Part shown: positions 18,209 through 44,494 of the stretch, in pieces
How positions within the stretch are numbered: the first letter of the stretch is position 1
Layout: each line of letters starts with the position of its first letter
DNA from: Mucilaginibacter sp.
Lineage (GTDB): Bacteria; Bacteroidota; Bacteroidia; Sphingobacteriales; Sphingobacteriaceae
Assembly (NCBI GenBank): GCA_030445275.1
Contig: JAUCSE010000093.1
Span: 57,289-121,288 of the forward strand
Direction of reading: 5' to 3'
DNA: 64,000 nt
Position numbers and translations under genes: made by a program
The notes under the pieces: model-generated
Told to the model about the DNA's origin: nothing
Seen by the model: only the letters and a program-made list of their open reading frames with translations
Database searches by the model: none

Positions 18209-18421
18209 TTATTGGCGTTCCAAACTGCACAACGTCTTGCCACTCTTCTTCGCATTATCCAGGCTTACTTTGATGATGTGGTGCGTGCAATTATGTAAAC
18301 CAGCACAATCGTCCCGCAGATGATACCGTTTTGTATGCCGGCTGTCACATATGTAGACTACTGAAGGGCTTTGACCATTTTGTCCTATTAACAGCAAAAA
18401 AAGTAATACTATCGTTTTCAT
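18209..18421 (-). CDS. Small exported Cys-containing protein
   Basis: MKTIVLLFLLLIGQ signal; VYICDSRHTKRYHLRDDCAGLHNCTHHIIKVSLDNAKKSGKTLCSLER; preceded by palindrome site C. Confidence 0.65.
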   Translation of the reverse strand: MKTIVLLFLLLIGQNGQSPSVVYICDSRHTKRYHLRDDCAGLHNCTHHIIKVSLDNAKKSGKTLCSLERQ

Positions 18422-18576
18422 TTTTATCAACCAGGCATGTTTAATTAATTATTGCTTCCAATCAGTCACGATTCCAGAAATCCTTAAAATGTGAAAACCG
18501 CTATTCTTAAAATTGCCATCGTATACTATGAACCTTAAGATGTATAGCCCGACATCCCGTTATCAACTAATCAGAA

Positions 18577-24434: not shown

Positions 24435-25319
24435 CTATGGATGCATCTCAGACGGTAAAAGAAGTTGATTCCTCTTTTTCCGGACTACGGTATTCAAAAT
24501 ATAATCAGTCAAGGGCTTCAGTTGTAAATCCCGGTACACCGGATGGACACCGCCCGCTGTAAAGAACTCATACTCATCTTTTCTTTTACTATACCAGACC
24601 TTTTTAATCGAATAGGTCGTCAAAGTATCATATCGAAGGACCATTTTGAAATCTTTCAATTTAACCGGGTCGTACGGAATGACCGAAGGATCTCCCGGAA
24701 AAGCGTCACAAGCAACAACCTCGTATTGTCTTCCATCCCAGCGTATACATTTTTCCTTGATTACATATTGGTAAATCACGAAGAGGCCGACAACCAAGAA
24801 CAAGGAAACCGATAACCATATAGTGTATCCGGAATAAATCAATTTATCTCGCTTTATTTCTTCTTTTTTCATGGTGTCCTCCCCTCTATGACCACTGTCA
24901 CCTGGTGACTGCGTGGTCGTTGGTTTGGTGCCTGCCATTTCAATTGGAACGGGGTAGGTTTTAATATACTCCTGGTAGGGCCTGGGCTTAAAATCTGTCA
25001 GCCAGGCTAACAATTCCACTTGCTTTTCTGCGGGATCAGCGGTCTCTCCATTTAAAAAGTTACGAAGTGCTCTAAAGCAATTTACGTCCTCTTTTTTACC
25101 TATCACCCGTGCATATTCAGCGCCATCTCCGTGGCGTTTAAAAAACGATTCTAGCACATTTTCATCAGATCTTTTAAATCGCGTTTGACAAGCCTTAACT
25201 GCTTCGTCCCTTAGGTTGTTCGCCGTTGGATAATTCAATTCGTGTGAAAGCCCGTTTGCCGCCTTTCGTTCTTCGTAATCTCGGAGTACTGCTACCCGAT
25301 ATTCATTAAACCGATACAT
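24435..25319 (-). CDS. One-TM protein family (paralogue of 43697-44494), function unknown
   Basis: N-terminal helical domain, TM helix IWLSVSLFLVVGLFVIYQYVI, C-terminal RWDGRQYEVVACD...TYSIKKVWYSKRKDEYEFFTAGGVHPVYRDLQLKPLTDYIL. Confidence 0.7.
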   Translation of the reverse strand: MYRFNEYRVAVLRDYEERKAANGLSHELNYPTANNLRDEAVKACQTRFKRSDENVLESFFKRHGDGAEYARVIGKKEDVNCFRALRNFLNGETADPAEKQVELLAWLTDFKPRPYQEYIKTYPVPIEMAGTKPTTTQSPGDSGHRGEDTMKKEEIKRDKLIYSGYTIWLSVSLFLVVGLFVIYQYVIKEKCIRWDGRQYEVVACDAFPGDPSVIPYDPVKLKDFKMVLRYDTLTTYSIKKVWYSKRKDEYEFFTAGGVHPVYRDLQLKPLTDYILNTVVRKKRNQLLLPSEMHP

Positions 25320-27301: not shown

Positions 27302-28378
27302 TTACGCTTTCGTCTTTTCCAATTTGGCGATGACGGCCAGTAACGCATCGGTATGGGTATAGATCTCATCTAAGGACTGGATCTCATACTTCACTTCCTT
27401 TTTCGCCTCGTCCAGCACGACCAGGTAATTTTTGGCCCCGCCTAAATACAAACGACAGATCGTTTTACGGTTATTATCATCCAGTAGGATCGCGAAATAA
27501 GACTGCGCGTCACGGTAAGTGATCCGCCTAGCTTCCACATGCTGACGTAGCAGGGATTTTACAATATAGAATCCCTCCAGTTCCTCTTCCGTCGTCACGA
27601 TATTCGAGACCGGCTCTGCATTAACAGCTTCCTCTAGCTTGCCCGCTTCCGCTACTTCAAGCTGTTTCTCCTGGTTAAGGGCTGATTTCAGCCGCTCGTT
27701 AATGGCATCGCTGATCAATAAATTAAAAGAGCGCTTAATGATCGGCCCAAACTGTTCTTTCACTTTTGCTGTGAGTACACCGGCATAAATCTGCTTGGTA
27801 AAAAAGGAAACAAAATTATCAGACGGAGAGAGCATTTCCTTATTTAATAAGGTCTTCAGCTCGTTGAGGTATTTTAATTCACTGGCCGTATTGGTAATAC
27901 TTTCCACATCAAAGTAAGACTTATGGAATTTCTTCAGTTCCGCGATCTCCGTCTCTTTGATCTCGGTAATATTAAACTCGAAGAAAGGCGTACTGTCCAT
28001 CTTGTTCTTCTCGTCCAGATCTGTATAAAACCGGTAAGCCAGCCCATTGGTCAACAGACTGAACTTCGCCCGGGTCGTATGAAAATAACGGAACAGCTGG
28101 GAATTGTGAGGGTCAAGTTTCTCCAGATGGTGCTTACACTCGATCAGTATTGTAGGCTCCCCGTCTTTCATGATCGCGTAGTCTACTTTCTCTCCCTTTT
28201 TGATGCCGATGTCCGCAATAAACTCCGGGTTGACTTCAAAGGGATTAAACACCTCATACCCCAATACCTGTATAAAAGGCATAATCAGTGCGTTTTTCGT
28301 GGCCTCTTCCGTTTTGAGCTGCGGTAGCAGTTTTTCTACACGTCCCGCCAGTTGTAAAATTTGATCTTTAAAATCCAT
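27302..28378 (-). CDS. Standalone HsdR N-terminal-like (PD-(D/E)xK) nuclease-domain protein
   Basis: EATKNALIMPFIQVLGYEVFNPFEVNPEFIADIG..KVDYAIMKDGEPTILIECKHH...AKFSLLTNGLAYRFYTDL. Confidence 0.85.
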   Translation of the reverse strand: MDFKDQILQLAGRVEKLLPQLKTEEATKNALIMPFIQVLGYEVFNPFEVNPEFIADIGIKKGEKVDYAIMKDGEPTILIECKHHLEKLDPHNSQLFRYFHTTRAKFSLLTNGLAYRFYTDLDEKNKMDSTPFFEFNITEIKETEIAELKKFHKSYFDVESITNTASELKYLNELKTLLNKEMLSPSDNFVSFFTKQIYAGVLTAKVKEQFGPIIKRSFNLLISDAINERLKSALNQEKQLEVAEAGKLEEAVNAEPVSNIVTTEEELEGFYIVKSLLRQHVEARRITYRDAQSYFAILLDDNNRKTICRLYLGGAKNYLVVLDEAKKEVKYEIQSLDEIYTHTDALLAVIAKLEKTKA

Positions 28379-28850: not shown

Positions 28851-29345
28851 CTATTCAAATTCAATGATCATTTGCCTGTAATCTATGGATACCTTACCGA
28901 ACTTTTGTAAAGCAGACTGCCCAAAGAGCAGCGGGGCCCCCAGGTTGTGAACGACAGTAGCCTGGATATTATCCAGCACCTTGTTGCCTATCTTAACCTC
29001 CCTTAAATTGATCAGGGTTCCTTCCGAAATATTACCGCTGGCATCGAAAAACCTTGCAGATCCCTTAATGTCCTCCCGGCTTAACTTACCTTGCTTGTAC
29101 AGAAAGACCGCTTCGGTCTCCGAAATAGATATCATACTGGCACCCGTATCAAAAACGAAGTGCATGGGGATCCCATTTATTTCAACCGGAATCTGATATA
29201 CGCCATCAATCTGTTCAATTTTAACAGTATTGTTTTCTGCCGAAGTTGATCCGTTGATTAGCTCATTGCTCTTCCTGTGGCCGGAACGAGAACATGCCGT
29301 AAGATTGATCATTAAATAGCAGGCCAGCCATATTTTTCTACTCAT
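28851..29345 (-). CDS. Retropepsin-like aspartic protease (lipoprotein)
   Basis: MSRKIWLACYLMINLTACSRS lipobox; YQIPVEINGIPMHFVFDTGASMISISETEA. Confidence 0.85.
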   Translation of the reverse strand: MSRKIWLACYLMINLTACSRSGHRKSNELINGSTSAENNTVKIEQIDGVYQIPVEINGIPMHFVFDTGASMISISETEAVFLYKQGKLSREDIKGSARFFDASGNISEGTLINLREVKIGNKVLDNIQATVVHNLGAPLLFGQSALQKFGKVSIDYRQMIIEFE

Positions 29346-29950
29346 TTGATTTCTCCTATTTTGGGTACGATCTGGATCAGGATACGCTGGTTCTGCTTAT
29401 CCCTGTCCGCAGGGAAACGACCTATTCCTCCTGTACCCGAACCGGAGACCTGAACCTCGCACACCGACTGATCAAGTCTGATATTGTTTTGGATCCACAG
29501 GACCCTGATCGCCTGCGCCCTTTTATAGCTCAGCGGATAATTCTCAATGTATTGATCCCGCGAGGACATGCCCTCGATAATGACGACATATTTGATATCC
29601 TGATTGGCGTACTTAACTTTCAGAGTATCTATCAGTGTCTTGATAGCCGTCCCGACCTTAACCAAATAATCCGTATATTGGGGCTTGATAACATCTTTCT
29701 GTGTCTCAAATTCAATGTTCCTTACCAGCGAGAAGCGTTTATAAAGTGAATCGTAGGCGAAATACTGTTTGGGCAACTCCTTTACCGCAGCCTGAATCTG
29801 TTTAATCTTTTGCAGCTGGTTGTCGGTCGCCTTTCGCTGGTATTCCAACTTTACGTAGGTCAATACATATAAGACCAGCATGATAAAGAAAAGGCTGGTC
29901 ATCAGATCTGTAAAACTGGGCCAGAAGAAACCCGAACTATTCCCTTTCAT
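29342..29950 (-). CDS. MotB/ZorB-like stator protein with OmpA-like C-terminal domain
   Basis: FWPSFTDLMTSLFFIMLVLYVLTYVKL (single TM with Asp); ENYPLSYKRAQAIRVLW OmpA-type motif. Confidence 0.85.
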   Translation of the reverse strand: MKGNSSGFFWPSFTDLMTSLFFIMLVLYVLTYVKLEYQRKATDNQLQKIKQIQAAVKELPKQYFAYDSLYKRFSLVRNIEFETQKDVIKPQYTDYLVKVGTAIKTLIDTLKVKYANQDIKYVVIIEGMSSRDQYIENYPLSYKRAQAIRVLWIQNNIRLDQSVCEVQVSGSGTGGIGRFPADRDKQNQRILIQIVPKIGEIK

Positions 29951-29953
29951 ACC

Positions 29954-31513
29954 TCAATGCTTTTCCTTAATGAACAGACTCCTCAGCCGCTGGGTTAAAC
30001 TGCCTTGCTGGATCTTTTCCAGCAACTGAACCGAATTTTTGAGATTGGTATTCAGCTCCCCGACCAGCAACCCAATCCGATCGCCCTGCGTCGCGGAGCT
30101 GCTTTTAAACTGCGCAACATCCTTATTCAAATCCGCCAGAAAGGAAAGATTGCTGAGGTTTGTCCTGCTTTCCGACAGGGCGGTCTTTAACGCGTCTATC
30201 TCATCTACCGTAAATTGCCTTACCATATCTGTAGAGGTCTGAATATGTTCCCGCAGATCACCGAAAGTACCCGAAATCGCATGCCCTACATCGGCAACCG
30301 CGCCATTGACCAGGTTCTTGTGACTTTCCAGTTGCTGGAAATGGCGGCTCAGAAAGTCCAGCAAGGCCTGACTCTGGTCTAATCTCCCCTGTAGATTCAA
30401 CGCGATATCCTCAAAATTACCTGTTCGAGCTAACAAGGCATCGGCCCTGGATGCCAGTTGCTGCGAGGAATCCACGAATGCATTCATGTTTTTCAGATAG
30501 CTGTTGAATTGCTCAAACTCCTTGATGCTATGTTGAAGTTCCCGAAGAACGGTAATATTAAAATTGGCGATCTGGGAAATATCGATCTTTTCTAACTTGG
30601 TCAATACACGATCCTGGGCCGAGATGGCTTCATAATTGGTCTGAAAGATGCCGGACAGCCGATCAAGGTTACCGGTGAAGTCCTGATTGAACAGCTGCAG
30701 GTTTCTTTGCAGCGATACCAGCGTGAAACCCAGGCTTTGGTTGAGAACCGGCAATAATTCTGTTTGCACAAACGTATAGAAATTATTTTTATTCGCCTCA
30801 ACCTTAGTCCTGGAGCCCTTGAATACATAACCGGAATTGACGATCGTGAGCAACAACCCGGTAAAACTGGAGATCATCGCCACTTTTACGCCACCGATCA
30901 GCAGTGCTATACCCATATTCAGCTGGGCATCCTTTGCGCCGTTATCCAGCACAAGGCCCAAATCAGGAATATTGAACAAACCTATAACAATACCCATCAT
31001 GGTTCCCATCAGTCCAAGGTATAGCGGGATAGATATACTTAGGTTGATTTCTTCTTCCAGGGCGCCTATATTTCGCTCGACAATATCCTTGACCAAATGA
31101 AAGTCCGCTGCCGCACCGTGGTTACGGATAAGGTAGGTATTTATCGACTGTTTGACCGTTTTGAAGACTCCAGTCGCAATAGACCTGCTTTCGATAATAC
31201 TAAGCGTAACCTGATCGCGCCGGATTTCCGGTGCTCGCACTATATCGGTATCCGGTAAAAGTTCAAGCTGCTCTGCGTTGTAATCTGGCTCGATCAGGCT
31301 TCCGCTCTGACTGGTCAGCTGATCCAATATGGTGGCCGGATCAAGGGCCTCCAGCTTTTCCGGATCGATCTTAAACCTGCTCATTCTAAGCTCCGGTCCC
31401 GGAGGCAATGCTTGCTGATAAAGATTGATCTTTTGATAGGTACGGTAAAAACTCCGGAACTGAAAGAAAACAATGATACAGACCAATAGGCCCTCGACAT
31501 ACTCAATTTTCAT
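29954..31513 (-). CDS. MotA/TolQ/ExbB/ZorA-like proton-channel protein with long coiled-coil tail
   Basis: INLSISIPLYLGLMGTMMGIVIGLF...MGIALLIGGVKVAMISSFTGLLLTIVNSGYVF; ~250-residue heptad-rich C-terminus. Confidence 0.85.
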   Translation of the reverse strand: MKIEYVEGLLVCIIVFFQFRSFYRTYQKINLYQQALPPGPELRMSRFKIDPEKLEALDPATILDQLTSQSGSLIEPDYNAEQLELLPDTDIVRAPEIRRDQVTLSIIESRSIATGVFKTVKQSINTYLIRNHGAAADFHLVKDIVERNIGALEEEINLSISIPLYLGLMGTMMGIVIGLFNIPDLGLVLDNGAKDAQLNMGIALLIGGVKVAMISSFTGLLLTIVNSGYVFKGSRTKVEANKNNFYTFVQTELLPVLNQSLGFTLVSLQRNLQLFNQDFTGNLDRLSGIFQTNYEAISAQDRVLTKLEKIDISQIANFNITVLRELQHSIKEFEQFNSYLKNMNAFVDSSQQLASRADALLARTGNFEDIALNLQGRLDQSQALLDFLSRHFQQLESHKNLVNGAVADVGHAISGTFGDLREHIQTSTDMVRQFTVDEIDALKTALSESRTNLSNLSFLADLNKDVAQFKSSSATQGDRIGLLVGELNTNLKNSVQLLEKIQQGSLTQRLRSLFIKEKH

Positions 31514-32738
31514 ATCTAATTTCCATTTTTGACAGAATGACCCATCGGTTCTCTTTCAGTTCCAGCTCTCCCGGCTTGACCAGTTCTATTCTCTGGCTTT
31601 GGGAGTTATAAGCATTCAACGGAATGCAGCAGGGCTCGATGCGTAGTTCGACATATTGCAGGGCAAGCTTAACGGCGGTCACATGTTCATCGATCTGAAA
31701 GATCGCCCTGTTGTCACCTTTCTTGGTCACTTTGTATATGGAGATGCCCTCCCGGTAAACGGGCGAGGCAAAACTATTGTCAAAACTACTATCTTCACTG
31801 GGGGTTGGCAGGTAAACGATTTCACTCGGTGCCTCCTTTGGCATAATCACCGGAGTAATATCCGAAAGCCAATTCCGGGCCTCGGACATTACCGGCGGAG
31901 TACTGTCCCTAATCGAGAGCTCCCGCAACTGCCGGCGGTGTTCCTCCACAAGATTACTTAGCTCCCGCAATTCCTTTTCCAGCCTTTCGGTCGGGTTACG
32001 CCCTGCATTTTCAAAGGCATGCCTGCTCAGTTTTTCCTGTACGTAGTTTCGGAATTTCTCGGGTATTTCAGCAGATCCCCTTTTGCGCCTTACAGCAAGC
32101 ACCGCAATCCCGATAAACAGGGTAAAAAGGATCGAAAAAACGTCAAGCTCAAATTTCACCCCCTCAAACCAGCCCTTTTCCGCCTCGTTATCCCGAGGGG
32201 ATGTGCCGGCCAATACCGGTCTGCTGCCTGCATATCGGGGTGTATCCGCAGCCGCCGCTGTGTTTACCGTTCGCGGCCGCTGGCTGCTATCTCCCTGCTG
32301 CGGAGGTACAAGGCCGGATATCTTTTGCCGGATATCCTGGATGAGACCGTTAAAACCCGGGTCTGTACTGTGCTTGACATAAAAGGCATGTATTTTTTGA
32401 TACCTCTGATCATTGAAGATACCATTGGTCAAAAAAGAGCTGATAAATTCATTACTCCTGAGCGGCTTGAATTCTCTATTTAATTGCTGAATTTCATCAA
32501 GTAATTGTGCATTGACGCTCATACCTCTTTTTTTCAAATAATCCTGCATCCCGGTGACATCCTGGGTGCCGTCGCAGGGGTACGACGTCAAAAAAGAACG
32601 TTGCTGTGTATCCGGTAAGGTATAGGCCGTGATCTTACATCCAAGGTAGTTCAGGTCCTCCAGGTACTGTGCCTTAGCATCCTGGGCAAAAGCCTTAACA
32701 CAGGTTAAGGTCAATAGGGCAAATAAAAGCTTCTTCAT
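31503..32738 (-). CDS. Membrane-spanning adaptor: signal peptide, exported domain, TM, cytosolic domain
   Basis: MKKLLFALLTLTCVKAFAQ; TM FELDVFSILFTLFIGIAVLAVRRKR; 11-bp overlap with the MotA-like gene. Confidence 0.65.
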   Translation of the reverse strand: MKKLLFALLTLTCVKAFAQDAKAQYLEDLNYLGCKITAYTLPDTQQRSFLTSYPCDGTQDVTGMQDYLKKRGMSVNAQLLDEIQQLNREFKPLRSNEFISSFLTNGIFNDQRYQKIHAFYVKHSTDPGFNGLIQDIRQKISGLVPPQQGDSSQRPRTVNTAAAADTPRYAGSRPVLAGTSPRDNEAEKGWFEGVKFELDVFSILFTLFIGIAVLAVRRKRGSAEIPEKFRNYVQEKLSRHAFENAGRNPTERLEKELRELSNLVEEHRRQLRELSIRDSTPPVMSEARNWLSDITPVIMPKEAPSEIVYLPTPSEDSSFDNSFASPVYREGISIYKVTKKGDNRAIFQIDEHVTAVKLALQYVELRIEPCCIPLNAYNSQSQRIELVKPGELELKENRWVILSKMEIRYEN

Positions 32739-32741
32739 ATA

Positions 32742-35700
32742 TTATTGTATAATGGCCGATAATTCACTCAGGAGACTGTTGATGGTTCCGATCAGCGGGT
32801 AAAAGAAAAGGCTCTCTTCGATTTCCCCTGTAGCAATACCATTCATTTTCCTATTGTACTCCAAGCCCTCTTCCAGGAAATCATAAATATGCTTACCAAA
32901 CTCACTGGTAAATGTCTCCATCCCAGCGGGAGATACATTGAAGTTGGTTTTGAAAGAAAACAATGTATCGAGTTTTAGAAAAAATTCGTTGAATACTTTT
33001 ACCTCATGGACAATCCTGTTTTTCGTGGCATCATCCAGCAATTCGTAAGTCAGTACGGGTTCTGCCTGGTCTTCCAGACAGGTATAAATAACCTTTATAC
33101 TTTCCGGGTTAACCGCATCAGCCGCCCGGTTGATCATCAATCCTCCTTTACAGGTCACTTCTTTAGGATGATCCTTTTCCATGATAACCCGGAATCCATC
33201 TTCGTCGAACCGTTCTTCAAATACCTGTTCAAAAATCAGTTCGGAAAGCCTCTCCAGCGCCTTCGTATTGGGCGTGATGATACTCAGTATCTTGGATCCT
33301 GTTCCACTAAAAATGAGATTCTTTGGCAGGCCGATAGCTTTATACCTCATTAACTTGGCGATATGATAAATGATCGCAGAGTAGAAGTAGATGAATACAA
33401 CCTTAATATCTTCATCGTGGGAAAGAAGGTTATTGTAGGAATAAAGTCGGGAATTTGACTTAGCGCGGTTATCCGCTATTGAAAAAAGAAAAGCATTAAT
33501 ATCTTCTGACCTGTTCTTTTCCTTAATCGAATGGAGCACCTTGGCCAGATCAAACTTACTGTTATTCTCCAGCAGCTTTTTATAATGCGCAAAATACTTA
33601 TTGATCAGCTGATTGGAACTTGCTGCACCATATTCGCTGTAAGCATCCCCGAACAGGGTGTTGGCCGCAAATTTAAAACTGGTCAGCAACAAGGGTTTGT
33701 TATTCCTAAATACCACGATGTCCGTTGTTCCGCCACCTATGTCTATCGAAACAACCGGTTTTGAAGCTCCTTTTAACTGGTTATTTTCTTTGAAGTAATA
33801 GTAGGGTGCTAACGATTCAGTCATACTGACGAGCGTGGCTTCATGACTAAAATATTTATAAAAAAGCTCTCGCCATTCATTTTCCAATTGTCCTCTCCGC
33901 CCCTCTGTCATACTGGACGGATAGAACCAGGTGAGCCTGGTCTGGGAAAGCTTTCCCTTGCCAAACAATACCTTGTTTCGCATTAACATGATCAGGTTTT
34001 CTAAGTATGCATGCACGCGCTGGACATTCCCACTTTCCTTTTTCGCCCATTTCAGGTTTGATTGAATCCTGTCCATATCTACCTTTTTTTCATATACAAA
34101 GGGGATATTCAAGTCAGCCAGGGTGAAGGTGTCCATCGCATCGATATTGAGCGAACGGTTCTCCGCTAATACGGTCCTTTGCGGAAAGGCGTATTCCGAG
34201 TCATTACCGATCAACTTCGGTACGAACTCATAATCGATGAGCTGGTAAAGGTCGTCCGCTGAATAGCGGTTGATGGCATCAAGTCTGCCAGGATGAAACA
34301 GCGTAGCGATCTGGCTCTCCGACGCCTTGATATCAAATGGCTTTGGCCCCTCTTCACTGTTTTTAAACTCGATATGCGTATTGGTGGTACCGAAATCAAC
34401 GGCAAACTCGAAGACCTCATTCCCGGGTTCGTAAATGGTCCACTTAGGAATGATAAAGCCGCTCGCCCCATCCCCAGCCAAATTCCTGACACGGATGTAA
34501 TCAAATTCTTCATCGAGTACATAATAAACGGAACTGGCCGTATCGACTCCCTTCGTCCTTCGTTTTCGTAGTGCCGTTTCTTGCACAGCAGCCTGGATTT
34601 TATCCGTAAAGAACTTGAGCTCGAACTGTGCATTTTTTTGCAGACCGAAAACGTCCCGGTCAATCATCTGTATTCTGTAACTAGCGTCAATGGCTGGGTC
34701 CCCAATTTTTATAAATGGAAAGATTGTTAATCCTATCTGGTGCTCCACAATAGCTCCCTTGTTCGTTTCCGGCCGGGCATCCATGGTCGTACCCTCCGAA
34801 GGAGAATAGTAGGTACGTTCAAAGGTGATGTATTCACCCGCCTTTTGAACCGGGATCTTTAAAACCACCTTAACCGAGGCACTCGCCCCCTGTATCATTT
34901 CAATTTTTGGTTTACCTGGATACTGGTCAACCAAATCACCTGCATCAAAATAATCGAAAAAAGCAGGTTTTAACGGCAACAGATAGCTTTTGGAATCGTC
35001 TCCCGCCTCGACCCTGGTATTCCCGTCAAAAAACTTATCCTTGTTGATGGGATAGATGAGCCTGATCAGCTGTGGCTCCAGCAAATCACTATAGGTCAGA
35101 TAAGGGTATTGAATACTGAGACTTGGAAGCCATCGCTGTTCCAGCGGCAAAGGGTCCAGGAACGGTATCACTTTTTTAGTGTCCCATGGGTCCTGAACAT
35201 AGCGAAAACCTGATTTGGTTAAGTTATTCTGCAGAACCAAGGGCGGCTTTTGTCCCCTGAATTTGGCTGAACTGATCCGGAAATCACTCCGGCTGACCGC
35301 ATCCAGAATGCTTTCCGTTTTTCTTTTTCGTAAGGCGACACCCAGAACTTCCACTGTTGCTCCGTTAACACCTGTATCGAGTTCCTGATATTCGTCGGTA
35401 AGTGTAGCCAGGGTCTGTCGCATGATCCGGTTGTATAGGGATGGATTTCTCTGGCCCAGGATCTCCAGATTTTGAACGAGATAGTCATGAAGATACCGCA
35501 TCCTGGAAACGAGTACCGGATTAGCCCTGAATAAGGCGTACAGATAAAACTGAAAGTCTTCATCCCTGGTGTAAAGCGGGGCGAACGTTCCCGAAAAAGA
35601 TACCGCATTGCCGGCCAGATTTATGGCGGCATGACTAAGATCATTGCCGGTAGCAAAGAACATAGTTACGGGGGAAGTACATCCAATAATCCTATGGTTG

Positions 35701-36173
35701 CAGATCACGAGATAGAGACTTGGCATCAGATCAAAGTTGAAAGCATCGCTATCTTCTGACAGGTAGAGATCCAGTGTTTCCGCAAAGCGGCGATGCTCAT
35801 CAAGCCCGTTCCGTAGCTTGGAGAGTTCCAGATCCCTGTCCCATCTCAGCAAACTTACCCGGCCAGCAAGGTTATCGATATTAAACAGGATCTCCGCCAG
35901 GTCAAGTGCGTCCGAAACCTGTTTTTCATTCTCCCGACTGGCAATGATATCCTTATGGGCTGTATAACTCCTTAATTCCGGTGTCCGGCTGATATTTTTA
36001 AACGCCGTTTTGGTCAAATCCATCCTTGCGAATGGCGTCGGGATCGCCGTCGGTAATGATGTACCACTTCCACCCTCCGGGTCACTGATCTGCTCGATCT
36101 CCTTGTCCCCGTATGGATCCGTGTCGAACCAGTCCTGCCCGCCGCGCTTTGAATAACCGAATATCTTTGTCAT
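32742..36173 (-). CDS. Giant actin/Hsp70-fold ATPase (1143 aa)
   Basis: Phosphate-1 FAVDFGTTNTHIEF, phosphate-2 VVSIDIGGGTTDIVVF, adenosine motif LIFSGTGSKIL, in the correct order. Confidence 0.85.
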   Translation of the reverse strand: MTKIFGYSKRGGQDWFDTDPYGDKEIEQISDPEGGSGTSLPTAIPTPFARMDLTKTAFKNISRTPELRSYTAHKDIIASRENEKQVSDALDLAEILFNIDNLAGRVSLLRWDRDLELSKLRNGLDEHRRFAETLDLYLSEDSDAFNFDLMPSLYLVICNHRIIGCTSPVTMFFATGNDLSHAAINLAGNAVSFSGTFAPLYTRDEDFQFYLYALFRANPVLVSRMRYLHDYLVQNLEILGQRNPSLYNRIMRQTLATLTDEYQELDTGVNGATVEVLGVALRKRKTESILDAVSRSDFRISSAKFRGQKPPLVLQNNLTKSGFRYVQDPWDTKKVIPFLDPLPLEQRWLPSLSIQYPYLTYSDLLEPQLIRLIYPINKDKFFDGNTRVEAGDDSKSYLLPLKPAFFDYFDAGDLVDQYPGKPKIEMIQGASASVKVVLKIPVQKAGEYITFERTYYSPSEGTTMDARPETNKGAIVEHQIGLTIFPFIKIGDPAIDASYRIQMIDRDVFGLQKNAQFELKFFTDKIQAAVQETALRKRRTKGVDTASSVYYVLDEEFDYIRVRNLAGDGASGFIIPKWTIYEPGNEVFEFAVDFGTTNTHIEFKNSEEGPKPFDIKASESQIATLFHPGRLDAINRYSADDLYQLIDYEFVPKLIGNDSEYAFPQRTVLAENRSLNIDAMDTFTLADLNIPFVYEKKVDMDRIQSNLKWAKKESGNVQRVHAYLENLIMLMRNKVLFGKGKLSQTRLTWFYPSSMTEGRRGQLENEWRELFYKYFSHEATLVSMTESLAPYYYFKENNQLKGASKPVVSIDIGGGTTDIVVFRNNKPLLLTSFKFAANTLFGDAYSEYGAASSNQLINKYFAHYKKLLENNSKFDLAKVLHSIKEKNRSEDINAFLFSIADNRAKSNSRLYSYNNLLSHDEDIKVVFIYFYSAIIYHIAKLMRYKAIGLPKNLIFSGTGSKILSIITPNTKALERLSELIFEQVFEERFDEDGFRVIMEKDHPKEVTCKGGLMINRAADAVNPESIKVIYTCLEDQAEPVLTYELLDDATKNRIVHEVKVFNEFFLKLDTLFSFKTNFNVSPAGMETFTSEFGKHIYDFLEEGLEYNRKMNGIATGEIEESLFFYPLIGTINSLLSELSAIIQ

Positions 36174-36178
36174 ATGGA

Positions 36179-37678
36179 CTATTTTTTAAAACTGAATTTA
36201 GAAGTGAGTAATTCTTCGGTAGCATGAAAAAACAGATTGATAAATTTCTGCTCTGCCGACCTATAGGTTTTTCCTCTAGCCGTTTTAGACAAAGCGCTAT
36301 CAAAGGCATGCATATCCACTTTGCCCGAAAAGAGGGAAGAATCAGCCTTACGGCCTATGATGAGTGCGTCAAGGGATGAATCCAGACTGAACGGCGAAAA
36401 TGAACGACTGTTCGCCTGTAATTCCCGCAGCCATTCGTCATAAGTTTTTAAAAAGTCAGCTACTCTGGATCGGTAGAAAGTCTCCTGCGGAAACTTCGAG
36501 GTGATCGCGGGAGCATCAATGCTCCATGATTGTTTTCCAAGTGATCCGTTCAGTTGTTCCCTAAGGTACTTGCCAAAAAGTGTAAACTGGGACAATCTTT
36601 TGGCGATAAGCTGTTCGGTATCATCATGCAGGTCATGGAAAGCGAGTGACTGTTTATCCGCCCTGACGGCGAATTCCCTGCAGATCGGGTTAACCACCTG
36701 TCCGTTATTTGTCACCAGATCATCGTCCGGTATCCCCATAAAGTTGATCACGGCCAATGCTCCTACCATTTCGATGAAATGAGCATCATTCTGCTGCCCC
36801 TCATCACCCGGATCATTCTTATAAAGCTTGCCTGTAAAGTCATCCATCAGGTAATACAAAGCGTTCACCGCGTTATTCACGTTGTCCTTGTAATAAGCCA
36901 GCGCCGCCTTGGTCTTGGCAATAAAATCCGACTTCTGAATCGGACTTGAATCGCTGCTCTCCAAATTGAAATAGGGCATCACCGTTAATGCGCCGACCCG
37001 CGCATCAGCTACATTTCCACGTCCGTTGATTTTGTCGTTGTTAATAGCGTTTCGAACGTTTTTTAATATCGTTGGAAAACCGGCAGCGCCTGTTCCTCCA
37101 AAAATGGAACTGATGATAAAAATCCGATCCTCTTTACCGTACTGACCGGCAAATTCACGAAATTCTTCGGAATCCTTAAATTGGTTAAGTACCACACTAC
37201 CGACATTGGGATTTCCTACAAAACCGATATCCATCTCTACGTCAAGCAAACTGGTAGTTTCCCCACGTTTGTTAATGGATTCTCCCGAAAATAATATATC
37301 CGCCAATGCTGCAGTGCTGTTACTCATCTGGCCGAATTCTATATAATCCCGGAAGCGTGTTTGAGCAACCTGCTGTAAGCCCAACGTAAAGCTGCTGGAC
37401 AAACGATGTTCAGAGTTACTGAGTTTTTCCAGCGTGGTTAACCGCGTACCAAAAAAACCATTATCAGTACCTGTAATAGCTGTGATAGCCTGATATTTTT
37501 CCATCAGGGCAACAGTCCTTTTCAGGTCATCGTTGGATTTATGCGGATCAATGATGATCGGAACGATCTCAAAATCCATGTCCGTATCGGGCTTAACGCC
37601 GGCTGCGAGCAGCATGGTCAGGGATTTCAGTACCCTTGAGCCGGTTCCCCCAACCGCAAATAAGAATAAACGAGCCAT
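36179..37678 (-). CDS. Tubulin/FtsZ-like GTPase-fold protein
   Basis: N-terminal LFLFAVGGTGSRVLKSL (T1-like) and IISSIFGGTGAAGFPTILKN (T4-like GGTGxG signature). Confidence 0.8.
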   Translation of the reverse strand: MARLFLFAVGGTGSRVLKSLTMLLAAGVKPDTDMDFEIVPIIIDPHKSNDDLKRTVALMEKYQAITAITGTDNGFFGTRLTTLEKLSNSEHRLSSSFTLGLQQVAQTRFRDYIEFGQMSNSTAALADILFSGESINKRGETTSLLDVEMDIGFVGNPNVGSVVLNQFKDSEEFREFAGQYGKEDRIFIISSIFGGTGAAGFPTILKNVRNAINNDKINGRGNVADARVGALTVMPYFNLESSDSSPIQKSDFIAKTKAALAYYKDNVNNAVNALYYLMDDFTGKLYKNDPGDEGQQNDAHFIEMVGALAVINFMGIPDDDLVTNNGQVVNPICREFAVRADKQSLAFHDLHDDTEQLIAKRLSQFTLFGKYLREQLNGSLGKQSWSIDAPAITSKFPQETFYRSRVADFLKTYDEWLRELQANSRSFSPFSLDSSLDALIIGRKADSSLFSGKVDMHAFDSALSKTARGKTYRSAEQKFINLFFHATEELLTSKFSFKK

Positions 37679-37688
37679 ATGTATAAGT

Positions 37689-38150
37689 TTAAGGTTTCCA
37701 GAAAGTAGTGTACTTACAATTGGTGCTCGCTCTCCTGATCCATGGAAAGGATGTTAACAGCACATACCATAAAAAGGCCCATAAGGCACTTGCCAGTCCG
37801 AAGCCCGCCAGATCACCACCGGTGATATGCAGTTGCTTGCAAACATCCCCGGAATGGACCGAGTTAAGGGCGATCGTAAATGCGAGAACAAAATTTAACG
37901 CGCAAAGCACAGCAATCGTCATCCACCAGCTTCCCTTACCGTTATACCGCGGGCTGTCGATCAAATGATACTGAATCAAATAGGCAAATGCGGTCAATGC
38001 GAGCATCATACAGCCGACATAAGTATACCAGGGTGTGCCGACATAACCGCTGCAGGTCACATCAAAGCCCCGGAGGTGATCACCGAGATCGGTGCCGTAA
38101 AACGGGAGTAGCCCGCCAAACTCATACATACTAGAAAAAAAATCGTTCAT
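37689..38150 (-). CDS. Four-TM membrane protein
   Basis: Hydrophobic segments YVGCMMLALTAFAYLIQY, WWMTIAVLCALNFVLAFTIAL, GLASALWAFLWYVLL. Confidence 0.65.
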   Translation of the reverse strand: MNDFFSSMYEFGGLLPFYGTDLGDHLRGFDVTCSGYVGTPWYTYVGCMMLALTAFAYLIQYHLIDSPRYNGKGSWWMTIAVLCALNFVLAFTIALNSVHSGDVCKQLHITGGDLAGFGLASALWAFLWYVLLTSFPWIRRASTNCKYTTFWKP

Positions 38151-38154
38151 GGTT

Positions 38155-39633
38155 TTATTTTATAATGATATCAAAGCTGCTGATGGCGTTATTCCCATAT
38201 ACCTGATCAAATGCATCATACATCCCATCAACTACATATTGCAATCCAAATGTCTTCTGTTGCTCCTGCAAGTCGGAATTGATCCGCTGGTCATTTTCAG
38301 AGGTAGTATATTTTACCCAAACCGGTACTCCGGCTTTGACCGAAATGGTTAACTTTTCTGGCCTGAGCGCCGTCGTCATCAGATGAAGCTGATGCGTAAA
38401 GCCCTTAAGACTCGGGTCAGCTGTGTTGCTGCTGATCTGCTCGGCTCTTAAGCTGTAATTATCATTGTGCCGATAATTAGTTGTATCCAAAAAGAATGCG
38501 GCATCCTGCAGACTCTCAGAAAAATCTACTGCCACGTGAAAACCGAATTTATTCCTGGTGCGGGGTTGTGTAGAGGCCCTCGCATCTGTGATCGGTCCCA
38601 GTGCACTGTTTGGCAAACGGAACGCGCCGATCTTATCTGCATAAAGAATTTTGTAGTTAGGAGCAAAGGGAATTCGCGTACCCTGAATAAGCAGTTTATG
38701 GAGATAACCGGCCCGGATTCTTTCGATCGTACCGCTTTTAATAATGGTCCTTAACTGTGTCCTACTCCCCATAATCCAGATATAATACGGCCGTCTACAA
38801 TGCATCATCGTCGGTTTATCCATCTGATCATAGTAATAACCAGCAAAATCCGATATCAATTGAATTGCCAATACGGAAAGGTCAAAGTGTTTTAATTTAT
38901 TGGCAAAGTCTACCTTGATGCCAATACTTTGCCCGGCTAGATAATCATGTGCATTTACCCGCCTCCCCGGAGAAAAAACAAAATCCGACACCAGGATTGA
39001 CGCGTTGTTCTCGTTAGTTCTGCCCAACACCGTGCTCATGACCTCTTTTAGATCAGATGATCCTCTGTTTCCTCCACGTCTGCGGAAGCTATCGGGTGTC
39101 AACGTTTGGATAAAATCATGAATAGCGGCTGCTCCCGCCATTTGCCGGGTAAAAGTAACTGTCTTATTGATATAATTCAGGTTAAGGCTATCACAGTAGT
39201 TGTTGATACTGATATCTCCTAATAAGGAGTATATCGCATCTTTGAATGTCGTACTCCCATTCACATATCCATCAATACTGGCGGAGTTCTCTAAATAAAC
39301 ATTGACATTAAACCGGCTGCTCCTACCAAATCGCTCGGAAGCCCTGGATGACCATATCCCGTCAGGAGCTATTTTAATATTTTTGTTCGCGTAAAGCTTG
39401 CTCAGGTAGTTTGCAACTTTAGATGTATCCAGGCGACCGTTATCGTAGAAGAGCCGATTAAAGCTGCTGCCTTTCGCTTTCCTGATATCATTAAGCAATT
39501 GGTCAAATTCGGCCGGTTTTATTTCACCATCCTCCGCCAGCTTAAGGGCATGATCTTGAAAAGCATCAAAATCTGATCGGCATGCGCTTAAACACAGTAT
39601 AGAAAGCAGAAAAAACAAGTATAAATTCCTCAT
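38155..39633 (-). CDS. Lipoprotein with vWA-like features
   Basis: MRNLYLFFLLSILCLSAC lipobox; VNVYLENSASIDGYVNGSTTFKDAIYSLL, GSSDLKEVM, ASILVSDFVFSPG resemble a MIDAS-type vWA order. Confidence 0.6.
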   Translation of the reverse strand: MRNLYLFFLLSILCLSACRSDFDAFQDHALKLAEDGEIKPAEFDQLLNDIRKAKGSSFNRLFYDNGRLDTSKVANYLSKLYANKNIKIAPDGIWSSRASERFGRSSRFNVNVYLENSASIDGYVNGSTTFKDAIYSLLGDISINNYCDSLNLNYINKTVTFTRQMAGAAAIHDFIQTLTPDSFRRRGGNRGSSDLKEVMSTVLGRTNENNASILVSDFVFSPGRRVNAHDYLAGQSIGIKVDFANKLKHFDLSVLAIQLISDFAGYYYDQMDKPTMMHCRRPYYIWIMGSRTQLRTIIKSGTIERIRAGYLHKLLIQGTRIPFAPNYKILYADKIGAFRLPNSALGPITDARASTQPRTRNKFGFHVAVDFSESLQDAAFFLDTTNYRHNDNYSLRAEQISSNTADPSLKGFTHQLHLMTTALRPEKLTISVKAGVPVWVKYTTSENDQRINSDLQEQQKTFGLQYVVDGMYDAFDQVYGNNAISSFDIIIK

Positions 39634-40715: not shown

Positions 40716-41381
40716 TCAGATAATACCCATGTCCTTGCAGAAAGCGACGAGTTGCTCGTTCTTGGAAAACTCCAGCGTTTCCTTCATCAGGTTAAGCCGT
40801 TTTTCAACGCTACTCAAACCCGACGGCCGGATCTTGTTTTGCTGTAAATAGGTCGGGATGTCCTTTTGCAGCATGCCCTGAGCGAGCAGGTAAATGATCG
40901 TAATATCAAAATCGCTGAAATCGTAAGTATTTTTTTCTTTGATCGCCTGCCGGAGATGGGCAGGAAAATGTTGCTTATTATGATAAATAGATGCGATGGC
41001 GGATTTCAGCTCCTGCGCATCATAACGCGCTTTCCGCACAAAGCCATTGATATGTAATTCGTCAAAGAGCGGTTCGATCACCGCGGCTTTGTGCTCCGCG
41101 GAGAACACGAGTATCTTTAATTCAGGCTGTAAAGACCGTGCAGCCGTAATTAGCGCCGCCCCGCCGGTAACCTGTTGCAGGTTACTATCTTCCTCGAAAG
41201 AAAGGTCTGTGATCAACAGGTCATAAGGCTCCTTATTCCGAAGTCCTATTTGCAACTTCATCAAGGCGTCGTCACAATAATAGGCATATTGAGTATAGGC
41301 GATCCCCAGGTCCTCCAGGGTCTTGCGCACCGAAATACTGGCGCTTTCGTGATCTTCGGCAATTAATACGCTTTTAAACAT
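40716..41381 (-). CDS. Response regulator, LuxR/NarL-type
   Basis: SVLIAEDHESASISVRKTLEDLG; DLLITDLSF; KILVFSAEHK; C-terminal HTH-like DFDITIIYLLAQGMLQKDIPTYLQ. Confidence 0.85.
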   Translation of the reverse strand: MFKSVLIAEDHESASISVRKTLEDLGIAYTQYAYYCDDALMKLQIGLRNKEPYDLLITDLSFEEDSNLQQVTGGAALITAARSLQPELKILVFSAEHKAAVIEPLFDELHINGFVRKARYDAQELKSAIASIYHNKQHFPAHLRQAIKEKNTYDFSDFDITIIYLLAQGMLQKDIPTYLQQNKIRPSGLSSVEKRLNLMKETLEFSKNEQLVAFCKDMGII

Positions 41382-41391
41382 GATCTGGCTG

Positions 41392-43059
41392 TTAAGAAAC
41401 CGGGAACGAGATCAGTATCCTGAGTCCCTTTTTCCGGTTTGTTTCAAAAGTAATCGCCCCCTGAATATGATTTATACGGTTTCCCGTACTGGTAAGCCCA
41501 TTTTTATACTTAACTTCTTTGGGGAGGCCTATACCGTCATCGGTATAGTAAATATGGATCTGGTTACCTTTCCGCTCAAACCTGATCGCGACATTACTGG
41601 CCCCGCTATGTTTCCTCATATTGACCATCAGTTCCTGGAGCACATGCTCAATCTCATATTGCACCGGCATACTGACCCTATTCCACAATTCATTCCTGTT
41701 CCCGGCAAGCACCACCTTCGTGCGCTCCGTGGCAAAAGCCTTGAGCAAGCTCCCCAGTTTTTCGCCGAAATCAAGGGCTGGAAGTTCCGGTTGCTCATAG
41801 GAGATATCACGGGATTTTTCATACATATCCTCTATCCTGTCCAATAAACGCGTTTTATCGATACCCTCCTGGTTATCAATCTCCGTCATCATGCGGTACA
41901 AGCCGTTAGCCACGACATCATGAACCTTTTTCGAGGTTTTGAGCTGACTTTCCCGAATCTTGTTTTGGGCCTCCAAATCCAGACGCTGTTTTCTTTTCCT
42001 GTACCAGATAACCGAAATGACTGTTCCCGTCACCAGCAGGAAAAGTGTGCCGAAAAGGAAGACACGCTGCCGGGCGATCTGGTATCTTTTTTCGGTATTA
42101 TCTCGTTGAAGCTTCAGATTATCTGCTTTGCCTTTTTCCACATCATAGCGAATAAAGGCGAATTGATTCTTTGCGGCATTACGCGACGTCTGTACACTGT
42201 CATTGAGCTGCTGATAGCGATCAAAATATGATTTTGTAAACTGAGGCGGACCAAGCCGGATTAGTTTCTGCAGGGCTTCGAGCTGATCGTCAGGGCTGCT
42301 GAGGCGCCGGGCGACAGTATACATCTGGCTGGCATACGAAAAGGCAGAGTCCGGACGCTTTCGGGTGTAATAATCCGCCAGGTGGGCATAGCTGGCATTC
42401 TGTCCCCAGAAATCATTTTCCTTTTGACGGATACGAAGTGCTTTTAATAGCTCCGGGGCTGCGTTATAATCAGGATGATAAAGCCATTGGGTTCTTGCCA
42501 TATTGGATAATGTTCTGGCATACTCCTTTTCATTCTTCGTCTGTGAGATGATCACCCGGTAGAGTTTTAAGGCACTGACATAACTTCCCTTTTTTTCCAA
42601 AGCCAATGCCTTATTATTTAAGAAGATGAGTTTAAATGCTTCATTCCTGGAAAATTTAATCGCCAATTCATAGAAGGGAATAGCCGCCTCATAATTTTTC
42701 AGGTTGATACTGGTCAGGCCAAGTTCATTATAATCCGAGGAAAGACATGCCTGATCCTTTTCTTTTTTCTCATCCAGGAACCTCAGCGACATCGACAGAC
42801 TTTCCTGGCTCCCGAAATAGTCCCCGGCATCGGACTGGATAACAGCCATATTGTTATAGGCCATCGCGATTTGAAGACTGTCCCTGGAGCTGGCTACAAC
42901 CTTGTTGAAGTAATAATAGGCAGAGTCATTCTGCCGGTATAAAAAGGATTCCGCTTTTCGATAATCAGCTACTTTAACCAGGTGGCCGGGAGATGTTTTC
43001 GTTTGGCAGGAAAATAAGCCCAGCATCAAGACCGGTAAAAGAAATAATAGCTTTTTCAA
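41392..43059 (-). CDS. TPR-containing sensor histidine kinase (NarX/DesK-like HATPase)
   Basis: Lipobox LMLGLFSCQ; TPR-like repeats; one TM (VFLFGTLFLLVTGTVISVIWY); ESQLKTSKKVHDVVANGLYRMMTEI dimerisation His; IHIYYTDDGIGLPKEVKYKNGL. Confidence 0.9.
   Translation of the reverse strand: MKKLLFLLPVLMLGLFSCQTKTSPGHLVKVADYRKAESFLYRQNDSAYYYFNKVVASSRDSLQIAMAYNNMAVIQSDAGDYFGSQESLSMSLRFLDEKKEKDQACLSSDYNELGLTSINLKNYEAAIPFYELAIKFSRNEAFKLIFLNNKALALEKKGSYVSALKLYRVIISQTKNEKEYARTLSNMARTQWLYHPDYNAAPELLKALRIRQKENDFWGQNASYAHLADYYTRKRPDSAFSYASQMYTVARRLSSPDDQLEALQKLIRLGPPQFTKSYFDRYQQLNDSVQTSRNAAKNQFAFIRYDVEKGKADNLKLQRDNTEKRYQIARQRVFLFGTLFLLVTGTVISVIWYRKRKQRLDLEAQNKIRESQLKTSKKVHDVVANGLYRMMTEIDNQEGIDKTRLLDRIEDMYEKSRDISYEQPELPALDFGEKLGSLLKAFATERTKVVLAGNRNELWNRVSMPVQYEIEHVLQELMVNMRKHSGASNVAIRFERKGNQIHIYYTDDGIGLPKEVKYKNGLTSTGNRINHIQGAITFETNRKKGLRILISFPVS
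41445..41488 (-). promoter_or_regulatory. Regulon site E inside the kinase gene: -7 box TACTTTTG (minus) at 41445-41452 plus TACGG-TTTC-CCGTA at 41475-41488
   Basis: Same 23-bp -7-to-TACGG offset; positioned to transcribe the response regulator. Confidence 0.5.
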
Positions 43060-43696: not shown

Positions 43697-44494
43697 ATGA
43701 CTGAAGAAGATAAAAAAAACCTAATCCTGAACTACCAAAACAAGAAGGCATCAGGTATGCTATCCTCTAATCTGATCAATCCAAGCCCCGGGAGACTGCG
43801 AGCCGAATGCCTGATCGTTTATGGGGAAAAAGGTACGCCTCGGGATGACGATACGCTCCGCTTGTTTTTTGAAACAAAAAGCGCGGAAGACGGCTACAAC
43901 ACGATCATAGCCAATGTGGACATTGATAAATTCAGGCCGCTGGTCTACCTTTTGAATGGCAGAAATAAAAACCCCCATGTCAAGCAATTTCAGCTGTTGG
44001 CTTGGCTGATCGGTTTTGAAACAGGGACTGATAACCTTTCCAGCGAAGAAAACCCGCCGAAGAAAAAGCAAATCGAAAAATTACGGCAAAAAATAACCGC
44101 CAAGCCGAAAATGGTCAGGAAAACTATTATTTCCTTAATCATCTTCAGCTTTGCGGGCATCGGGACTTTCCTGTTATTGAATAACGGAAATACGGAATGC
44201 ATGTACTGGACCGGCGACCATTACCAAGCCATTTCCTGTAACCAAAAAATAAGTGGTACCACTATATATGCCTTGGATACCCTCCAACTGAACCATTTCA
44301 AAAGGATTACCACACCCGACACCATTAAATCTTTGAGAGGTATCTGGTATTCGAAAATAGATAATGTGGTAGAATTCTATACCGCAGATGGCTTTCATCC
44401 AGTGCACACGGCAAGAAAACTAAAACCCCTGACCGATGGCATACGGGAAAAATATATCCTTAATAAAAACCCCTTACCTGCTGGAAATAACTAG
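43697..44494 (+). CDS. One-TM protein family (paralogue of 24435-25319)
   Basis: TM IISLIIFSFAGIGTFLLL; C-terminal MYWTGDHYQAISCN...TIKSLRGIWYSKIDNVVEFYTADGFHPVHTARKLKPLTDGI. Confidence 0.75.
   Translation: MTEEDKKNLILNYQNKKASGMLSSNLINPSPGRLRAECLIVYGEKGTPRDDDTLRLFFETKSAEDGYNTIIANVDIDKFRPLVYLLNGRNKNPHVKQFQLLAWLIGFETGTDNLSSEENPPKKKQIEKLRQKITAKPKMVRKTIISLIIFSFAGIGTFLLLNNGNTECMYWTGDHYQAISCNQKISGTTIYALDTLQLNHFKRITTPDTIKSLRGIWYSKIDNVVEFYTADGFHPVHTARKLKPLTDGIREKYILNKNPLPAGNN

Follow-up and report, generated by a model that had tools for sequence, protein, structure and literature searches.

What might a bacterium do with a compact set of genes that places a stator-like protein pair beside both an actin-like and a tubulin-like protein? 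The question is raised by a stretch of 64,000 nucleotides from Mucilaginibacter sp. (hereafter the window), in which eight minus-strand open reading frames at 28851-39633 overlap or lie a few bases apart from their neighbours. The first-pass annotation had listed eight compact genes here and had proposed that an ion motor and two cytoskeletal NTPases form a unit. The existence, order, and coordinates of all eight genes are confirmed in the sequence, and the composition of the unit also stands, whereas the stator is not a constant part of it. The unit is, moreover, wider and more modular than first described, with exchangeable hydrolases at its 3′ end, an adjacent two-component pair, and a sister type carrying TerD proteins. 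The components of the cassette, their order, its modularity, its transfer, and the tag on its hydrolases are observed directly in the loci compared. As to its role, we regard it, tentatively and at somewhat under an even chance, as a mobile, modular envelope machine, for which ion-driven surveillance and defence are the leading guess.

The assignment of the 499-aa GTPase encoded at 36179..37678 (minus strand, as for all genes of the cassette) to the tubulin/FtsZ superfamily, already made at first reading, is well supported by sequence comparison. All 46 aligned relatives have a match to PF13809 (best 1.6e-9), and 45 of the 46 also have one to PF00091; the GTP-binding glycine motifs of the superfamily are present in the window family, with GGTG and FGGTG invariant among aligned relatives. 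The window protein alone matches PF13809 weakly (2.7e-5, score 24.0 versus a cut-off of 27), and the best direct match of the family profile to the PDB is also weak (3zid, E 0.36). An actin-type fold, that of a filament-forming actin or an Hsp70-like protein, is likewise well supported for the putative ATPase encoded at 32742..36173 (1143 aa, with a family-specific N-terminal half), in agreement with the original proposal. Alone, this protein matches PF14450 weakly (0.0027); its predicted model (pLDDT 86.5) finds MreB as the best Foldseek match (6.3e-9), followed by ParM and DnaK/Hsp70, and the phosphate and adenosine motifs are conserved in the family alignment.

The gene at 38155..39633 encodes a lipoprotein of 492 aa, in which vWA-like motifs had been noted. 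Its ExSxS motif is replaced by DxSxS in some relatives, according to the alignment. There is no Pfam match to vWA in the window lipoprotein, 1 of 41 relatives matches (5.9e-4), and the family profile matches no PDB sequence; several vWA domains are among the top Foldseek matches of the model (pLDDT 91.7), none of them below E 0.01. The protein may thus be called remotely vWA-like, without a firm match to the vWA family. The next gene (37689..38150) encodes a small membrane protein of 153 aa that had been credited with four transmembrane segments but, by eye, has three hydrophobic stretches. Downstream of the actin gene, the adaptor (31503..32738, 411 aa) combines, as read from its sequence, a signal peptide, one transmembrane segment, a cytoplasmic coiled coil, and a C-terminal domain.

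The vWA-like lipoprotein, the small transmembrane protein, tubulin, and actin, usually with the adaptor, constitute the core of the cassette, and their order is almost invariant. Among 75 loci with long enough flanks, all found via the tubulin and including close relatives, so that the counts are non-independent, the lipoprotein lies upstream of the tubulin in 74, the small membrane protein is present in 71, the actin lies downstream of the tubulin in 74, and the adaptor family follows the actin in 68. The gene order shared across about 75 other loci is far beyond chance, and the co-occurrence of actin-like and tubulin-like genes with their neighbours, suspected from the window, is indeed widespread.

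The MotB/ZorB-like subunit (29342..29950, 202 aa) was correctly recognised by its transmembrane aspartate (D15) and OmpA-like domain: the family profile matches the ZorB structures 8vvn (1.8e-13) and 8qyd (2.3e-8), the window protein matches PADLOC ZorB at 1.1e-13, and D15 is invariant (18 of 18 aligned sequences). For the channel subunit with a long cytoplasmic tail (29954..31513, 519 aa), the proposed MotA/ExbB/ZorA likeness yields weak matches when the window protein is taken by itself (PF01618, 0.43; PADLOC ZorA2, 1.8e-4) but is better supported by its relatives, 6 of 24 of which match PF01618 (best 2.9e-6). MotA is found in 32 of 69 loci and MotB in 24 of 69, and the presence or absence of the stator on the tubulin tree needs seven changes; it is therefore a recurrent but optional module. 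Since it is missing in about half of the loci, the stator cannot be a general sensor. The motor may be physically coupled to the cytoskeletal proteins. In three loci (L086:18529-20364, L088, and L091), a membrane protein of ~590-610 aa is inserted between MotA and MotB. Prevotella-type loci (L053-L092, from Prevotella and relatives) bear zinc-ribbon proteins after the adaptor, at the place occupied elsewhere by MotA/MotB.

A sister type of the cassette, type B (L023-L027, L173, and L174; five of them in the same family), bears a tubulin and a large actin-like protein homologous to those of the window type (profile probability 99.7 and 98.6, respectively); hence, the tubulin–actin pair is the shared heart of both. 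In type B, TerD proteins (PF02342, 2.4e-58) and a protein with an OmpA-like end, recognised from sequence, replace MotA/MotB and the hydrolases, and a protein of the 424-aa class is also present. Like the window cassette, type B has a lipoprotein and a small transmembrane protein upstream; this lipoprotein shows no detectable homology to the vWA-like one. A link between TerD and a tubulin–actin pair is apparently unreported. In a distant genome (L176:548-10381), a gene for a 1615-aa tubulin-type protein is followed by MotA-like and MotB-like genes, which suggests that the association of stators with tubulins is wider than this cassette.

Within the window's family (Sphingobacteriaceae), 13 of 151 genomes have the tubulin, whose distribution is patchy even inside a genus; across the phylum, 14 of 396 genomes have it. 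Among 85,462 species genomes, 431 tubulin relatives were found; the best 80 of these belong mostly to Bacteroidota, but also to Kapaibacteria, Fibrobacterota, Spirochaetota, and Campylobacterota. In the tree, the window's tubulin clade mixes Spirosomataceae, Chitinophagaceae, Saprospiraceae, Cryomorphaceae, and Flavobacteriaceae. Genomes of Cryomorpha ignava (L031, Cryomorphaceae) and Membranihabitans marinus (L035, Saprospiraceae) share ~79% DNA identity across the whole cassette; the similarity sets in close to the beginning of the vWA-like gene and ends shortly beyond the gene that follows the retropepsin. The shared unit comprises nine genes and ends in the retropepsin and a nuclease lipoprotein; outside it, no DNA similarity between the two loci is detectable. 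Such identity between unrelated flanks indicates a horizontally moving cassette. A deeply diverged copy (L175) still keeps MotB, vWA, the transmembrane protein, tubulin, actin, the adaptor, and MotA together. Carriage by phages or plasmids was considered and set aside: there was no phage record, and one Prevotella replicon listed as a plasmid measures 1.77 Mb. Three IMG/VR contigs of putative viral origin (L215, L216, and L217) carry the cassette.

Next to the cassette, and not part of its core, the window contains minus-strand genes for a response regulator (40716..41381, PF00072) and a TPR histidine kinase (41392..43059, HATPase_c and TPR), both found beside type A as well as type B cassettes in the family. 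The kinase and/or the response regulator occur within the retrieved stretch in 7 of the 13 tubulin-bearing family genomes, and a response regulator match, strong or weak, was obtained in 74 of the 151 family genomes. The pair (window 40716-43059; L153-L172) marks a variable locus in many of these genomes, where it might serve accessory systems in general as their regulator or anchor. On the other side of the cassette lies a non-core gene for an HSDR_N-domain protein (27302..28378, minus strand; PF04313, 5.6e-16). In a genome of the same genus, this neighbour is 83% identical versus ~34% for the tubulin, which indicates that the cassette was exchanged beside a conserved neighbour. Two related genes (~265-294 aa; window 24435-25319 and 43697-44494) flank the island on both sides, and most of the other hotspot genomes have members of their family adjoining the kinase gene. 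Small secreted proteins with the motif VYxCDSxxxxxYH...C.GL..C recur near the loci (window 18209-18430, L022:5814-6023, L026:13162-13371).

The cargo of this hotspot was sampled in 20 genomes that have the regulator and in which the tubulin was not found, counting families rather than loci. The genes adjoining the regulator pair encode Cas9, Cas5/6/7/8b (type I-B), DpdF, PsyrT, AbiC-like proteins, and SrfB/SrfC. Defence-type matches, notably to a DRT reverse transcriptase, were also obtained at random control loci in these genomes; hence, the enrichment of the hotspot in defence genes is suggestive, not significant, and this counts against a role of the cassette in defence. Few clear defence genes are found in the cassette flanks of relatives, if one discounts matches to nuclease and protease profiles, which correspond to hydrolases of the cassette itself.

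Of the explanations other than defence, the one that survives best, although we consider it rather unlikely, is a resident machine for envelope maintenance or membrane remodelling, as proposed in 2010. The NTPases would act at the inner membrane, the stator would supply energy across the envelope, the hydrolases would process envelope proteins or scavenge DNA, and the spread of the genes would reflect niche adaptation. Nearly every component is a protein of the membrane or envelope, and in 14 Spirosoma genomes a version lacking MotA/MotB has conserved flanks and looks resident, which favours residence and counts against defence. Patchiness within genera, recent transfer across families as a unit, and exchange of the cassette at the hotspot argue against a resident machine. 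Its other support is the 2010 prediction itself, the nearest published idea, in which, according to the main text of PMC2875224, vWA/FtsZl1/OmpA operons constitute a membrane-remodelling system. The resemblance lies in a divergent tubulin whose aligned relatives match PF13809, membrane proteins, and partners of vWA and OmpA type, whose counterparts here are the remotely vWA-like lipoprotein and the OmpA-type MotB. FtsZl1 proteins, however, have ~1000-1200 aa, with a long coiled coil ahead of a helical domain at the C-terminus, for which the window tubulin of 499 aa has no room; furthermore, the cassette contains actin and often MotA. No actin, MotA, or MotB homologue was found in four classical PF13809 neighbourhoods of the phylum, and no such actin or MotA partner is named in the main-text passages covered of PMC2875224, whose supplementary lists may hold relatives. 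Given this architecture and these partners, the window protein was not assigned to FtsZl1.

At its 3′ end, the cassette often has one or more genes for lipoproteins that adopt a hydrolase fold. In the window this is a retropepsin-type aspartic protease (28851..29345, 164 aa), identified as such from the outset and matched by PF13975 at 1.5e-16; retropepsin occurs in 22 of 69 loci. Elsewhere, the 3′ end bears an HtrA-like serine protease (L043 versus HtrA, 2.5e-23), staphylococcal-type nucleases (by motif and by PADLOC/Pfam SNase profiles), or, in L089, a secreted DNase-I-like nuclease (7.2e-14). Three unrelated folds, those of retropepsin, the HtrA-like protease, and the staphylococcal-type nuclease, have a common basic "SG..RK" tag after the lipid-carrying cysteine (CSRSGHRK in the window). 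Defined as C, then SG within a dozen residues, then basic residues (window: TACSRSGHRKSN), the tag is present in 30 of 39 cassette hydrolases versus 2 of 233 other lipoproteins from the same and control loci, a looser definition chosen after seeing the data; an earlier, tighter one gave 12 of 43 versus 3 of 177. Many rows of this test are close relatives, and the Fisher value overstates the evidence; the occurrence of the tag on unrelated folds holds independently of the counts. The surface-lipoprotein export signal of Bacteroidota is acidic (PMC5080379), and the basic tag of the cassette is therefore a different motif. The tag offers a concrete and testable means of telling which enzymes are part of the machine.

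It is conceivable that the tag serves as an address by which the machine brings the lipoprotein hydrolases to the outer membrane, or across it, for use against neighbouring cells, so that the cassette would deliver effectors in inter-bacterial competition. The excess of tagged hydrolases of three unrelated folds, placed at the 3′ end of the cassette, is in line with this idea, which we nevertheless judge quite improbable: no immunity gene and no secretin, needle, or outer-membrane channel were recognised among the cassette genes, and the hydrolases are general nucleases and proteases.

Zorya resembles the cassette, clearly for ZorB and weakly for ZorA, in its MotA/MotB-like ZorAB pair, with a transmembrane aspartate, an OmpA-like peptidoglycan-type domain, and a long tail of the A subunit, and differs in lacking actin, tubulin, the vWA-like lipoprotein, and the tagged hydrolases; besides, the stator is optional in the cassette. 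That the latter is a Zorya subtype with exchanged effectors, as the ZorB-like and weaker ZorA-like matches might suggest, is very improbable, given that none of the eight proteins matches ZorC, ZorD, or ZorE and that MotA/MotB are missing from the core in about half of the loci. The first-pass annotation was right in seeing no ZorC or ZorD; neither ZorC and ZorD nor ZorE was seen with the ZorAB-like pair here, and none of the three is among the families listed (25 of 33) for 141 flanking proteins of relatives. The SrfABC operons, too, include a large actin/Hsp70-type protein in an accessory setting, and the hotspot of one genome that lacks the tubulin (L170:3172-8970) holds an SrfB/SrfC gene pair next to the regulator pair. 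The actin-like protein matches SrfB (PF07520) at E 0.13 over 20 residues, and in profile comparison the phosphate motif alone aligns (44 columns, probability 73.9); with no full-length SrfB homology and no SrfC homologue in the cassette, SrfABC membership was rejected. A survey of MotAB relatives mentions Zorya and not tubulin (PMC12505986). In agreement with the first reading, no system of this composition was found in the literature searched, in which few subscription journals or preprints were covered.

The defence model remains our leading guess. It is based on the nearness of MotB to ZorB with its invariant ion-path aspartate, since, in Zorya, defence depends on this aspartate of ZorB, on the binding of peptidoglycan, and on the tail of ZorA (PMC11890865). 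It is also based on the strict core order in ~75 loci; on nine-gene transfer across families, patchiness, and cassette exchange, all typical of accessory defence or conflict genes; on hydrolases, including nucleases and proteases, with a common tag; and on the presence of Cas9, type I-B Cas, DpdF, PsyrT, and AbiC-like genes at the regulator locus in other genomes. The absence of the stator from about half of the loci is counted against it, as is the possibility that the retropepsin and nuclease lipoproteins serve in housekeeping.

According to the defence model, MotB would be anchored to peptidoglycan, and the ion channel would be engaged when the envelope is disturbed, as by an entering phage, in the way proposed for Zorya. 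Force or a change of conformation may then be relayed through the MotA tail and the adaptor to the cytoplasmic actin/tubulin pair, which would switch its state and thereby deploy or activate the tagged proteases and nucleases at the envelope; these hydrolases would guard the cell from phages or DNA that invade it. Expression of the cassette may, in the window's family, be controlled by the neighbouring kinase/response regulator pair.

To our knowledge, there is no earlier description of an operon in which an actin-like and a tubulin-like protein are nearly always found together and which, in many lineages, also includes an energised transmembrane stator. In the boldest version, which we consider unlikely though worth stating, the operon would encode a previously unknown kind of envelope machine, powered by ions and spread horizontally, whose actin and tubulin act as one unit to deploy lipoprotein proteases and nucleases that are addressed by the tag; their targets would most likely be phages or other invaders. 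The cassette would show a way of connecting cytoskeletal NTPases to an ion gradient, and the ZorAB principle would extend beyond its known partners.
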